64,000 bases of DNA from Rhodococcus sp. IEGM 1409 (GTDB lineage: Bacteria > Actinomycetota > Actinomycetes > Mycobacteriales > Mycobacteriaceae): the NCBI RefSeq assembly GCF_030056735.1, contig NZ_JASHKN010000015.1, positions 1-64,000 on the forward strand, given 5' to 3'. Shown here in pieces: positions 52,810-56,780 of this stretch. A program made the position numbers and the translations under genes. The notes under the pieces were generated by a model that was given only the letters and a program-made list of their open reading frames with translations, searched no databases and was not told the origin of the DNA. The number at the start of each line of letters is the position of its first letter. Positions within the stretch are counted from its first letter, which is position 1.

Positions 52810-55503
52810 CTAGAGCCAGGTCGCGAATCGACGGATGAACATTCCCTTGGCCACCTGCGTAACAACGCAATACGCCGCGAGAGTGAGGACCAGCCACGGG
52901 AAGTAGTTCCACGGCAGTGAAACCAACCCGAGGGAATGACCCCAGGACGTGAACGGGAACACCAGCGCGAAGACGCAGGCGGCGCCCGTGCTGAGCAGTA
53001 CCGGCAGCGATGCACGCGACTGGATGAACGGGATCTTGCGAGTGCGGATCATGTGAACGATCAGCGTCTGCGAGATCAACGACTCGATGAACCAACCCGA
53101 TTGGAACAGGGCCGCATGCTCGGGAGAGTTGGCAGCGAACACGAACCACATCAGCGCGAACGTCGAGATGTCGAAGATCGAACTGATCGGGCCGATGAAC
53201 ACCATGAACCGGCGCAGGCTCTTGGTCTCCCACTTGCGGGGCTTCGCGAGGAAGTCGTCGTCGACGCGGTCCCACGGGATCGTGAGCATCGAGAGATCGT
53301 AGATCAGGTTCTGCAACAACAGAACTACGGGAATCATGGGGATGAACGGCAGCAAGGCGCTGGCGACGAGCACCGAGAAGACGTTCCCGAAGTTCGACGA
53401 CGCAGTCATCTTGATGTACTTCTGGATGTTTCCGAAGGTCCGACGCCCTTCGATGACACCTTGTTCGAGTACGCCTAGGTCCTTCTCCAGCAAGATGATG
53501 TCCGCGGATTCGCGCGCGATGTCCGCTGCGGTGTCTACAGAGATGCCGACGTCCGCCGCCCGCAGTGCGGGTGCATCGTTGACACCGTCGCCGAGGAAGC
53601 CGACCGTGTGGCCGACCCGGCGCAGCGATTCGACAATACGTGCTTTCTGCATCGGATCCGTCTTCGCGAAGACAGTTGTCCGTTGCACCAACTCGTCGAG
53701 GGCCTCGTCGCTCAACGCTTCGATCTCGGCGCCGGATACCACGGTTCCCACATCGATACCGACTTTGCCGCAGACAGTTTCGGCTACCAGTTCGTTGTCA
53801 CCCGTCACCACCTTGACGGCGACGCCATGGCTCGCGAGCGCTTCGATCGCCCCGGCCGCAGATTCCTTCGGCGGGTCGAGGAAGGCAAGCAGTCCGACCA
53901 GGGTCATGCCCTCTTCGTCTGCGGTGGAGTACTCCCGTCGCTGCTCGTCGACAACGACCTTGGTCGCCACCGCAAGCACTCGCTTACCCTGACCGTTCAG
54001 TTCCGCGACCAGTCGGTCGATTCGGGCCAGCCAGCCTGGTGTCAGGTGGTGAGCCACTCCGTCCAGTTCCACCGATTCACAGACCGAAAGGAGCTCTTCC
54101 ACTGCACCTTTCGTGACGATCAGATCACTGTCACCGTGATCGACCACCACTGACAGGCGACGACGCTTGAAGTCGAAGGGAATCTCGTCCACCAACCCGT
54201 GCCGACGCGAGATCTCTTCGAGAACTTCGGGACCGGCAGCCTCGATCACTGCGTCGTCGAGGAGACTGCGCAGGCCGGTCTGATTCACGGAATTGACTGC
54301 CGCGAGCCGCAACACGTCCTCGGATTTACGTCCGGCAGTGTCCAGATGCTCACCGAGAACGATGCGGTCCTCGGTCAGAGTTCCAGTCTTGTCCGTGCAC
54401 AGAACGTCCATGGCGCCGAAGTTCTGAATCGCGTTGATCTGCTTGACGATCACCTTCTTGCGCGACATGTGCAGCGCGCCCTTGGCCAGATTCGCAGTCA
54501 CGATGAGCGGCAACATTTCCGGTGTCAACCCCACCGCGGTTGCGACGCCGAAGAGTAGTGCTTGGCTCCAGTCCTTGGTCAGTCCGTTGATGATGAACAC
54601 CGCGGGAACCATGATCAGCATGAACTTGATCAGCAGGTAACTGACGCTGCGCACTCCGACGTCGAAGCTGGTTTCGGGTCGCTTGGACGCCAATTGTGCT
54701 GTCATGGCACCGAAGTAGGTGCGCTTGCCCGTGTGCACCGCGACGGCGGTCCCGCTGCCCGACACGACGGAAGTACCCATGAATCCGATGTTTTCGGCTT
54801 CGAGCAGTCGATCGACGTCGATCCCCGAGGATGGTTCCGCCGACTTCTCGGCCGGCATCGATTCACCGCTGAGCATGGACTGATTGATCTGCAGATCCTT
54901 GGCCCGGATGATGCGGACATCGGCCGGGATCATGTCGCCGGCGGCAAGCTGGACAACATCACCTGGCAGTAGTTGCTCGATCGGAATCTCCGCCGTGACC
55001 ACGGTGTTGTTGATCTTGCGGGTGGCCGCGACTGTTGTCGTCACCATTGCCTTGAGCGCCTCGGCGGCGCGGCTCGAGCGGTATTCCTGCCAGAACCTCA
55101 GTGACACACTGACAAAGATCATCAACCCGAGGGTGATGATGCCCTCGTAGGAAGGTCCGTCTTCCGGGTCCGCCCACACCACGTCGGTCGCGACCATGAT
55201 CAGGGCGAGGAACACCAGGATCAGGATGAACGGGTTCTTGAACGCCCCCGCGAACTGCACGATTGCCGGCGCCGGGCGGTCGTGGCGGACGTCGTTGCGC
55301 CCGTATTGCCGGCGAAGATCGTCGATCTGATCGTCACGAAGCCCGTTGGCCGTCGTGGTCAGATCTGCGAGAACGGTGCGCGTGTCCGCGGTCGAGTAGT
55401 CGACCAATTCCTGTGCGCTTTCCTTTGCCAGGACTGTTGAATGTGTTTGTTGTGCACTGTTTCTCGTGGGCCGTGGCCGCAATGCGAGAACGGAAAATGA
55501 CAT
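52810..55503 (-). CDS. mgtA: Magnesium-importing P-type ATPase
   Basis: An 897-residue P3B-type ATPase. The phosphorylation site is DKTGTLTED, with LLPGDVVQLAAGDMIPADVR in the actuator domain, LSGESMPAEK, GDGVNDAPALRAADVGIS in the hinge and about ten membrane helices. The ATG at 55503 has GAGGGG 6 nt upstream; a longer frame to 55578 lies in the leader. It imports Mg2+ when external levels are low and is co-transcribed with mgtC. Confidence 0.95.
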   Translation of the reverse strand: MSFSVLALRPRPTRNSAQQTHSTVLAKESAQELVDYSTADTRTVLADLTTTANGLRDDQIDDLRRQYGRNDVRHDRPAPAIVQFAGAFKNPFILILVFLALIMVATDVVWADPEDGPSYEGIITLGLMIFVSVSLRFWQEYRSSRAAEALKAMVTTTVAATRKINNTVVTAEIPIEQLLPGDVVQLAAGDMIPADVRIIRAKDLQINQSMLSGESMPAEKSAEPSSGIDVDRLLEAENIGFMGTSVVSGSGTAVAVHTGKRTYFGAMTAQLASKRPETSFDVGVRSVSYLLIKFMLIMVPAVFIINGLTKDWSQALLFGVATAVGLTPEMLPLIVTANLAKGALHMSRKKVIVKQINAIQNFGAMDVLCTDKTGTLTEDRIVLGEHLDTAGRKSEDVLRLAAVNSVNQTGLRSLLDDAVIEAAGPEVLEEISRRHGLVDEIPFDFKRRRLSVVVDHGDSDLIVTKGAVEELLSVCESVELDGVAHHLTPGWLARIDRLVAELNGQGKRVLAVATKVVVDEQRREYSTADEEGMTLVGLLAFLDPPKESAAGAIEALASHGVAVKVVTGDNELVAETVCGKVGIDVGTVVSGAEIEALSDEALDELVQRTTVFAKTDPMQKARIVESLRRVGHTVGFLGDGVNDAPALRAADVGISVDTAADIARESADIILLEKDLGVLEQGVIEGRRTFGNIQKYIKMTASSNFGNVFSVLVASALLPFIPMIPVVLLLQNLIYDLSMLTIPWDRVDDDFLAKPRKWETKSLRRFMVFIGPISSIFDISTFALMWFVFAANSPEHAALFQSGWFIESLISQTLIVHMIRTRKIPFIQSRASLPVLLSTGAACVFALVFPFTSWGHSLGLVSLPWNYFPWLVLTLAAYCVVTQVAKGMFIRRFATWL

Positions 55504-55636
55504 GACGAATCCCCTCGGCTGCCCGAACGCATCAGACCATGTCAGTGCATCAGGGCAGCAGAATGCGCTGAACGACAATGGAAGTCGTCAGCGGACGCGG
55601 CAAAGCCGCGCAGATGAAACCGAGGGTGCAAAAAAG

Positions 55637-55723
55637 TCAGAGGCTGACGAGCGAAAGACCGGGGCGAGCACCGTCGGTAAGAGCAGAAGGATGGGTCGAA
55701 TATCGACTCGGCGGGTCGTCCAC
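55637..55723 (-). CDS. Short Asp/Pro-rich leader ORF between M-box and mgtA
   Basis: A 28-codon ORF with an excellent ribosome-binding site (AGGAGG, 8 nt before the GTG at 55723). It begins V-D-D-P-P-S-R and ends LSLVSL-stop. It lies 133 bp upstream of mgtA inside the leader RNA. Acidic-plus-proline starts (EPDPTP) occur in the enterobacterial MgtL leader, where they destabilise ribosomes at low Mg2+. The resemblance here suggests the same principle, but no homology is claimed. Hairpins CGCGGC-AAA-GCCGCG (55596-55610) and GCTGCCC...GGGCAGC (55518-55559) follow it. Confidence 0.55.
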   Translation of the reverse strand: MDDPPSRYSTHPSALTDGARPGLSLVSL

Positions 55724-55854
55724 GATGGTCACCTCCTGAAAGTTCGGGGCGCCCGATGACGCCACACGATTGCATGCGCACAGCACACGCCAGGAGAACC
55801 GAATATCGACGTACTCTCGCCTTCGCCGGAAGAAACCGGCACCAAGCTGCGAAA

Positions 55855-56020
55855 ACACCTCCACGTCCGAGTTTTGGCACTGCACGACGTGTCCCGATCG
55901 AAACCGGGAAGCCACTTTGGATCACCCCTTAAGCCGGGGAGATCTGTCCTAACCTTGGGCGTCTCTCGACGTCGTGAGATCAGTGGCCTGTGTTCGCGCA
56001 GAAGCCTCACCTAACGAGGT
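55855..56020 (-). ncRNA. M-box (ykoK leader) Mg2+ riboswitch
   Basis: Read on the minus strand, the leader contains GTTAGGTGAGGCTTCTG (5' conserved block), GCCACTG, the hallmark ACGTCGAGAGACGCC hairpin, and the 3' conserved GTGCCAAAACTCGGACG block. These match the order of the M-box consensus. M-box RNAs switch expression off when Mg2+ is bound. It precedes the leader ORF and mgtA-mgtC. Boundaries are approximate. A TTGACA (complement of 56056-56061) and TACCCT (complement of 56032-56037), 18 nt apart, form a plausible promoter just upstream. Confidence 0.9.
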
Positions 56021-56070
56021 ACTGCACCCAGAGGGTAGTTCTCAAATCTGTTGCCTGTCAACCGAGCAAC

Positions 56071-56712
56071 TCAGACGGAAGGCAATCCTGCCCGTGCGAC
56101 GGCACCGGCGAAGAGTGCCGTCACGGCGGCGCCCATCACGCTCTGATCAACTTCTTCCGGATCCACGGAGTGCTCGAGGACGAGCCCGGATATCAAGGCC
56201 ATCAACGAGATTGCGGTGGTCCGCACATCGAAGGAATCGTCCACTCCCCATTCCCGGGCACGTTCGCCGATCAACTCCACGAGTTGACTGCGCAAGTGGC
56301 GACGCTCACGCAAGTAGGCCTGAGCGATCTGCGGATCACGCCCGGCGAGGACTCCGAATTCGAGAACGAGCAGTGACCATCCCGGATCGTCGACCATCCA
56401 CGTTGCAATGGCCTCGCCGCCTTTGCCCGCTGCATCGGCCGGGTTCATACCGGCGATCTCGGCGAGCACACGGCCGGCCAGTTCGAGAGACCGTTGCGCG
56501 AACAGTTCGGCGAACAGATCTTGTTTCGACTCGAAGTTGGAGTAGACAGCCCCCTTGGTGAAGCCCGCTCGGCGAGCAACTTCAGTGAGACGTGCAGCAC
56601 TGAATCCGCGCTCCGCAAACTCTTCCGCCGCAGCGTCGAGCAGTCTTTGCCGCACCACGTCACGTCCGGGGCGGGTTACCGGAGTCCAGTCCGGTTGACG
56701 AGATTCAGTCAC
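56071..56712 (-). CDS. TetR-family transcriptional regulator
   Basis: A 213-residue repressor from the GTG at 56712. N-terminal HTH: LLDAAAEEFAERGFSAARLTEVARRAGFTKGAVYSNFESKQDL. The C-terminal domain is helical. An ATG at 56766 would extend the protein across its own operator region and is less likely. It is divergent from the membrane protein at 56781, which it probably represses together with itself through the dyads at 56714-56744. Confidence 0.87.
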   Translation of the reverse strand: MTESRQPDWTPVTRPGRDVVRQRLLDAAAEEFAERGFSAARLTEVARRAGFTKGAVYSNFESKQDLFAELFAQRSLELAGRVLAEIAGMNPADAAGKGGEAIATWMVDDPGWSLLVLEFGVLAGRDPQIAQAYLRERRHLRSQLVELIGERAREWGVDDSFDVRTTAISLMALISGLVLEHSVDPEEVDQSVMGAAVTALFAGAVARAGLPSV

Positions 56713-56713
56713 G

Positions 56714-56744
56714 ATACCTAGAGTATTCAATACCTCGGGTATTG
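56714..56744. promoter_or_regulatory. Probable TetR operator: perfect dyad plus imperfect second copy
   Basis: CAATACC-TCG-GGTATTG (56728-56744) is a perfect 7-bp inverted repeat. Directly before it, GATACC-TAG-AGTATT (56714-56728) is a degenerate version in the same register. Both lie between the two divergent start codons, so binding would block both promoters. Confidence 0.7.
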
Positions 56745-56780
56745 ACAAGCTCTTTACTTTCGACAAGATCAGGACTCTTC

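Follow-up and report, generated by a model that had tools for sequence, protein, structure and literature searches.

What does a short open reading frame do between a Mg2+ riboswitch and the transporter gene downstream of it? M-box leaders are usually viewed as a riboswitch alone, and in Rhodococcus sp. IEGM 1409 a stretch of 64,000 nucleotides from contig NZ_JASHKN010000015.1 (the window) carries, all on the minus strand, an M-box aptamer, a 28-codon leader ORF with a conspicuous ribosome-binding site and mgtA (Table 1). An earlier note on this DNA had likened the ORF to the enterobacterial MgtL leader and proposed that translation-based control is stacked on the riboswitch.

The leader ORF and its neighborhood

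This genome has a single M-box, and a gene for a TetR-type regulator (56071-56766, minus strand) lies directly upstream of it on the same strand. The mgtA gene shares 99% identity with a contig of R. qingshengii, which places the organism within or beside R. erythropolis/qingshengii; its likely start is the ATG at 55503, behind GAGGGG, and not the mechanical TTG at 55578. Between the two, the leader ORF runs from a GTG (55723-55721) to a TGA ending at 55637 and translates as (M)DDPPSRYSTHPSALTDGARPGLSLVSL. The earlier note counted its ribosome-binding site among the strongest in the window; AGGAGGTGA is unique there, where 0.46 copies are expected by chance, it stands 5 nt from the GTG, and its GGAGGT is invariant in an alignment of 40 sequences. 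The GTG is supported as the start because spacer indels disrupt the upstream-extended frame in relatives; the longer ORF from 55915 (92 aa) in the ORF list was rejected on this ground.

Constraint is concentrated at the beginning of the peptide. Five species of the R. erythropolis group share identical codons 1-10, and their alignment has no indels within the uORF and eight gap columns outside it. Pairwise differences among six distinct DDPP/DEPP sequences give a synonymous to non-synonymous ratio of 25:13 for codons 2-7 in the true frame, while the other two frames give 5:33 and 0:38, and codons 11-19 (23:274) are without constraint. The start VD[DE]PPS[RG] recurs in the R. erythropolis group, R. 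maanshanensis, R. oryzae and four loci of another genus, before mgtA in most cases and before mgtC in two (L100 and L125). The acidic-proline start described in the earlier note is thus retained as D-[DE]-P-P in related Rhodococcus species, and conservation of the ORF between M-box and mgtA, the check that the note had suggested, was likewise found. These comparisons identify the window ORF as a real, conserved coding leader ORF whose constraint is limited to the first ~10 codons, in the window D-[DE]-P-P-S-R. At one locus (L006, genome G025), a C-run is seven long, one letter too many, and the peptide is cut to VDEPPQ, where six C would give DEPPSRYRPTY; this may be a sequencing error, the alternative being recent decay.

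Table 1. Features of the M-box, leader ORF and mgtA locus, in positions of the window
Feature	Position	Strand	Evidence or remark
M-box (ykoK) Mg2+ riboswitch aptamer	55852..56025	-	RF00380, 146.7 bits (gathering score 44), E 4e-34
SD1	55856..55862	-	sequence; position matches PMC12810186; pairing not beyond shuffles
candidate anti-SD for SD2, TTCTCCTG	55791..55798	-	invariant in five species
SD2, leader-ORF Shine-Dalgarno, AGGAGGTGA	55729..55737	-	single copy in window; GGAGGT invariant
leader ORF (uORF2/Rv1805A-like), MDDPPSRYSTHPSALTDGARPGLSLVSL	55637..55723	-	GTG start, 28 aa
conserved core, codons 2-8 GAC GAC CCG CCG AGT CGA TAT (DDPPSRY)	55700..55720	-	
C-rich, G-poor stretch, uORF tail and just beyond; candidate Rho utilisation site	55604..55693	-	
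hairpin GCTGCCC/GGGCAGC	55518..55559	-	directly 5' of mgtA Shine-Dalgarno; five species
mgtA, Mg2+-translocating P-type ATPase, 897 aa	52810..55503	-	TIGR01524 (1202 bits; equivalog cut-off 611) and PRK15122 above cut-off; Pfam

Spread of the leader-peptide family

In Mycobacterium tuberculosis (Mtb), a conserved uORF2 (Rv1805A) is under the control of the pe20 M-box, by way of a translational platform with Rho-dependent termination (D'Halluin et al., PMC12810186). This uORF2 is highly translated and switch-controlled, its platform was tested with reporters, Rv0115A is an Mtb homologue without an M-box, and the peptide was published as specific to mycobacteria (PMC12810186). We assign the window ORF, judged by its residues and its place, to the uORF2/Rv1805A family. 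Of 102 M-box downstream regions in the window's family, 91 (81 distinct) have a Shine-Dalgarno and a uORF, with M-S-x-[GSD]-D-S-P-Y-P-S as the commonest form. The layout is that of a short ORF with a strong Shine-Dalgarno about 110-185 nt beyond the aptamer, and the window ORF fits it, with SD2 ~135 nt past the aptamer anchor and inside the range of these 91 loci. Bridge sequences, for example MSSGDSPSRYLTS (MSSGDSPSRY, DSPSRY/DPPSRY), connect the mycobacterial form to DDPPSRYST; at the Pro7 that is invariant in mycobacteria the window has Arg7 in an ungapped alignment, Pro5 aligns only if two codons are gapped, a placement that the bridges favor, and Ser-AGT is kept. Among the remaining 11 regions, L124 and L160 also have a uORF, several are without a start codon or frame, and three have mgtC immediately downstream of the M-box. 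The mycobacterial copies L128, L142 and L159 have lost their start codon or reading frame, which suggests that some loci can do without the peptide; L142 and L159 carry ATT where the uORF2 start codon is expected, either an ATT start or a decaying copy.

Two further observations concern the genes around these leaders. A small protein of ~55-65 aa (LTPQER...TPVAVxxASLGG) is encoded between the uORF and later genes at L010, L046, L035, L008 (minus strand) and L187, in several mycobacteria and Rhodococcus, and its L010 copy has no Pfam or NCBIfam match. At L185, a uORF2 copy, MSPSDSPFPKS, lies behind an apparently truncated M-box and is followed by a TrkA-like gene.

We also identified the uORF in M-box loci of three further actinobacterial families (L210-L216, L220-L222) and in nine mgtA leaders in which no M-box was found at E 0.1. 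The latter comprise L012 of Leucobacter and a further locus, L229 (VSDDHSRL), L047 of Microtetraspora (MDGCSSPGH) and six leaders of one large-genome family (MSPDRSPC, MTSRSPEGSPR). Mg transporters accompany the uORF both with and without an M-box, the same search found no uORF at 24 paralogous P-type ATPases, and presence before mgtA without any M-box argues that the peptide has a role of its own. In L012, L229 and L047, TTGCGCAA-like palindromes lie near the presumed promoter, upstream of the uORF; they are perhaps a repressor site in place of the riboswitch.

In Firmicutes, the first six M-box mgtA leaders examined all have a Shine-Dalgarno and leader ORF, and a uORF is also found in clostridial Mg-transporter M-box leaders. 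Paenibacillus peptides before mgtA or mgtC include MDSYPSRN, MDSSPSYR, MDSSSSSRFRR and MDDSSSPSSR. Two others, MDPDPSIERC before mgtE (L278) and the AEPEPEP leader MGSRSLAEPEPEPK/MGSRSLAEPEPEPKS (L281), before a protein that we take to be DUF1003-like, are both near the ribosome-destabilising motifs EPDP/EPEP and are the only ones with alternating acidic/Pro starts. The earlier note drew a sensible analogy with MgtL; an alternating start of the EPDPTP type is itself absent in the window, which has DDPP. A search for Shine-Dalgarno, start codon and early AGT in a short ORF returned 84 matches in 2 x 1.27 Mb, of which about two look like chance and the rest are leaders of the uORF family. One ABC-transporter permease family stands behind a uORF both in Microtetraspora (L047:5948, MDDDPGSPDRL, no M-box) and in Paenibacillus (L287, MDSSSRMRQ, with M-box), making this permease a candidate Mg2+-related transporter.

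Taken together, these matches extend the leader-peptide family far beyond mycobacteria, to the whole class and to Paenibacillus and clostridia. Its class-wide core, as read from the aligned peptides, is [D/H/R/G]-Ser(AGT)-[Pro/Arg], and DDPP is a local variant. Homology across phyla is likely, and is judged on 6-8 residues and position.

Codon choice, tails and the proposed control of mgtA

The core is fixed at the level of codons as well as residues. Across 103 actinobacterial uORFs, 200 of the 321 Ser codons at positions 2-12 are AGT, compared with 7 of 224 in the tails and 4.7% in mgtA, and 59 of 60 Tyr codons are TAT. Locus counts are not independent events, as related species share ancestry, and clustering to 41 groups reduces this effect and does not remove it; among these clusters AGT makes up 76/121 Ser codons in codons 2-12 against 3/81 in tails (P 1e-19) and 19/401 in mgtA (P 4e-41), and TAT 16/17 against 6/104 (P 3e-14). 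At the core AGT is never AGC and TAT almost never TAC, though synonymous, and the window has the rare codons AGT, CGA and TAT there. The other AT-rich Ser codons, TCA and TCT, are not enriched, and general structure avoidance therefore fails to explain the AGT bias and was rejected as its cause. Near-fixed AGT and TAT are an unusually clear sign of the importance of decoding speed or codon identity. Residues 2-8 are also richer than tails in acidic residues (17.8 vs 5.1%), Pro (19.6 vs 9.0%) and Ser (33.4 vs 15.6%); most members have just one acidic residue, a weaker motif than EPDP.

The sequence of the tails is not conserved, yet C outnumbers G in them. In a 60-nt window at +30, C-G averages 0.14 and is positive in 98% of 103 loci, compared with 0.027 (sd 0.086) in mgtA coding DNA; the Rhodococcus leader itself has 0.20 per base at +30 and 0.15 at +60. 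Such a composition is that expected of a Rho utilisation site, and suggests one here. We found no conserved intrinsic terminator in actinobacterial leaders.

We think it fairly probable that the window ORF is a translated, cis-acting leader of the uORF2 family, in which the M-box gates the Shine-Dalgarno and slow first ~10 codons decide read-through into mgtA. By analogy with the Mtb pe20 homologue, the M-box probably controls access to the leader-ORF Shine-Dalgarno. Passage of the ribosome over the first ~10 codons, slow or destabilising through Asp/Pro/Ser and AGT, CGA and TAT, would then set whether RNA polymerase reaches mgtA, and in actinobacteria the read-out would be by Rho at the C-rich tail of the uORF, as its composition suggests. 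There, slow translation might favour termination or prevent it, the direction not being readable from sequence. The sequences show conservation, a coding signal, codon bias, the C-rich tail, an association with Mg transporters whether or not an M-box is present and, in Paenibacillus, a second terminator; that the leader acts in cis, through Rho and in a given direction is inferred.

The window also holds candidates for the parts of the Mtb switch platform (SD1, anti-SD and SD2). The best partner of SD2 is TTCTCCTG, at -13.4 kcal/mol with a non-significant z of -0.9, and duplex energies for SD1/anti-SD/SD2 pairing at 81 loci were not beyond chance when compared with dinucleotide shuffles (mean z about -0.2). 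The fold of the whole leader (z -3.7, a single leader) mixes the riboswitch end, the uORF and the mgtA site and is not taken as evidence. The hairpin in front of the mgtA Shine-Dalgarno is maintained across the five species with G-C/G-U exchanges.

A different read-out is suggested by Paenibacillus, where the order is M-box, intrinsic terminator 1, leader ORF, second intrinsic terminator, and mgtA or mgtC. The second terminator follows the leader ORF in L016, L018, L264, L266, L270, L271, L273, L276-L279 and L283-L287; a PAS/GGDEF-like gene with an M-box in the same Paenibacillus genome lacks both the uORF and terminator 2. Near codons 17-21, the uORF holds a segment, CAGAGAGAG in L271 and L273, that pairs with the terminator-2 5' arm. 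This pairing exceeds shuffles in L270, L271, L273, L284 and L286 (P <= 0.013); among the other seven of the 12 leaders, where it does not reach significance, four are borderline (P 0.06-0.16) and three show none. Here, the second terminator would be the read-out: a ribosome halted at the start of the uORF would leave the segment free to pair with the 5' arm, and mgtA would be made, in the same sense as with MgtL in E. coli. We found no report of a tandem attenuator in Paenibacillus M-box leaders in the literature searched.

The strongest rival, which we regard as a real if lesser possibility, is that the uORF is merely the first M-box-gated cistron, as in the Mtb model, where high Mg2+ hides SD2, translation ceases and Rho terminates; any translated ORF would then protect the transcript, and the peptide would have no sensing role. 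Published reporter results on the Mtb pe20 homologue (PMC12810186) and a tail that is C-rich and otherwise unconserved agree with this, whereas the strong constraint on N-terminal residues and rare codons, and the persistence of the uORF before M-box-free mgtA, do not. It is unlikely that the peptide is instead a small functional protein, such as a transporter partner, produced under Mg2+ limitation. The M-box-free Mtb homologue Rv0115A (PMC12810186) and the M-box-free copies L185 and L187, away from transporters, would suit such a protein, but the peptides range in length from 13 to more than 50 aa, their C-terminal part is unconserved, neither Pfam nor NCBIfam holds a family for the leader peptide, and fixation is at the level of codons, not only residues. 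We give an equally low rating to the idea that the fixed AGTC and TAT form an RNA element, by pairing or as a protein site, with an incidental reading frame: the exclusion of synonymous AGC and TAC at the core is what it would predict, but neighbouring Asp and Pro codons vary synonymously in frame, the spacing from Shine-Dalgarno to start is fixed, and no consistent upstream RNA partner was found for AGTC. A classical, ribosome-controlled intrinsic attenuator at the uORF stop (GTCAGCCTCTGAC-TTTTTT, 55648-55636) is very improbable and was rejected, for although the window has a hairpin with T6 across the stop codon, 0.7 such sites are expected by chance in a scan and the T-run is lost in sister species, which have CTTTTT, CTCTTT, CTCTGT or CCTTCG.

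It is likely that two controls are stacked on the one transcript, and it is possible that both read Mg2+. The least certain part, which we hold to be doubtful, is Mg2+ sensing by the peptide itself, by pausing or drop-off of the ribosome. The stacked control proposed in the earlier note is supported in part, by a conserved leader ORF between M-box and mgtA that is found also without an M-box and by the MDPDPS and AEPEPEP leaders of Paenibacillus; DDPP is not the class-wide core, and by sequence the peptide is kin of uORF2/Rv1805A and not of MgtL. More tentatively still than the cis-acting leader itself, we envisage an ancient Mg2+-responsive peptide of Actinomycetota and Firmicutes, mostly stacked on an M-box and able to act alone, MgtL-like in action, with Mg2+-dependent pausing or drop-off over an Asp/Pro/Ser start that has obligatory rare codons, and read out by Rho or terminator 2. 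Should such a translated peptide prove to be a regular second stage, two controls would be present in many leaders of Mg2+ transporter genes, and the mycobacterial uORF would gain a testable function, cis control via slow start codons. The uORFs before riboswitch-free mgtA would offer a clean system for the peptide alone.

Comparison with known Mg2+-responsive leaders

The closest relatives are the Mtb pe20/Rv1535 uORF2 copies (Rv1805A, Rv1535A, Rv0115A; PMC12810186), which likewise lie downstream of an M-box in a Mg2+ context with a GAGGAGGTGA Shine-Dalgarno, and whose core M-S-x-x-D-S-P-Y-P-S is joined to the DDPPSRY of the window by the MSSGDSPSRY bridges. They differ in that the window copy precedes mgtA and starts with DDPP, and in that the Mtb platform is reporter-tested while the window is known from sequence. 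In M. abscessus, mgtE (MAB_2717c) has an M-box and a short uORF found ribosome-protected by Ribo-seq (PMC4974804), as in the window a short uORF after an M-box and before a Mg2+ transporter gene; it was described as a vcgB homologue (PMC4974804), and identity with uORF2 is not implied.

The leader is also reminiscent of MgtL from Salmonella and E. coli, a short leader ORF before mgtA with early acidic and Pro residues. In E. coli, low Mg2+ makes ribosomes drop off at EPDP, which protects mgtA from Rho (PMC11282234), and Rho would be the likely read-out in the window as well. The likeness is closest in the two Paenibacillus M-box leaders with MDPDPS and AEPEPEP. The two differ in that DDPP does not alternate as EPDPTP does, that MgtL sits in a different Mg2+-responsive leader without an M-box, and that the resemblance is without a demonstrated sequence relationship.

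The aptamer itself is of the same family as the ykoK M-box of Bacillus subtilis, in which a terminator directly follows the aptamer. Compared with that arrangement, Rhodococcus is without a conserved intrinsic terminator, and Paenibacillus adds a leader ORF and a second terminator.
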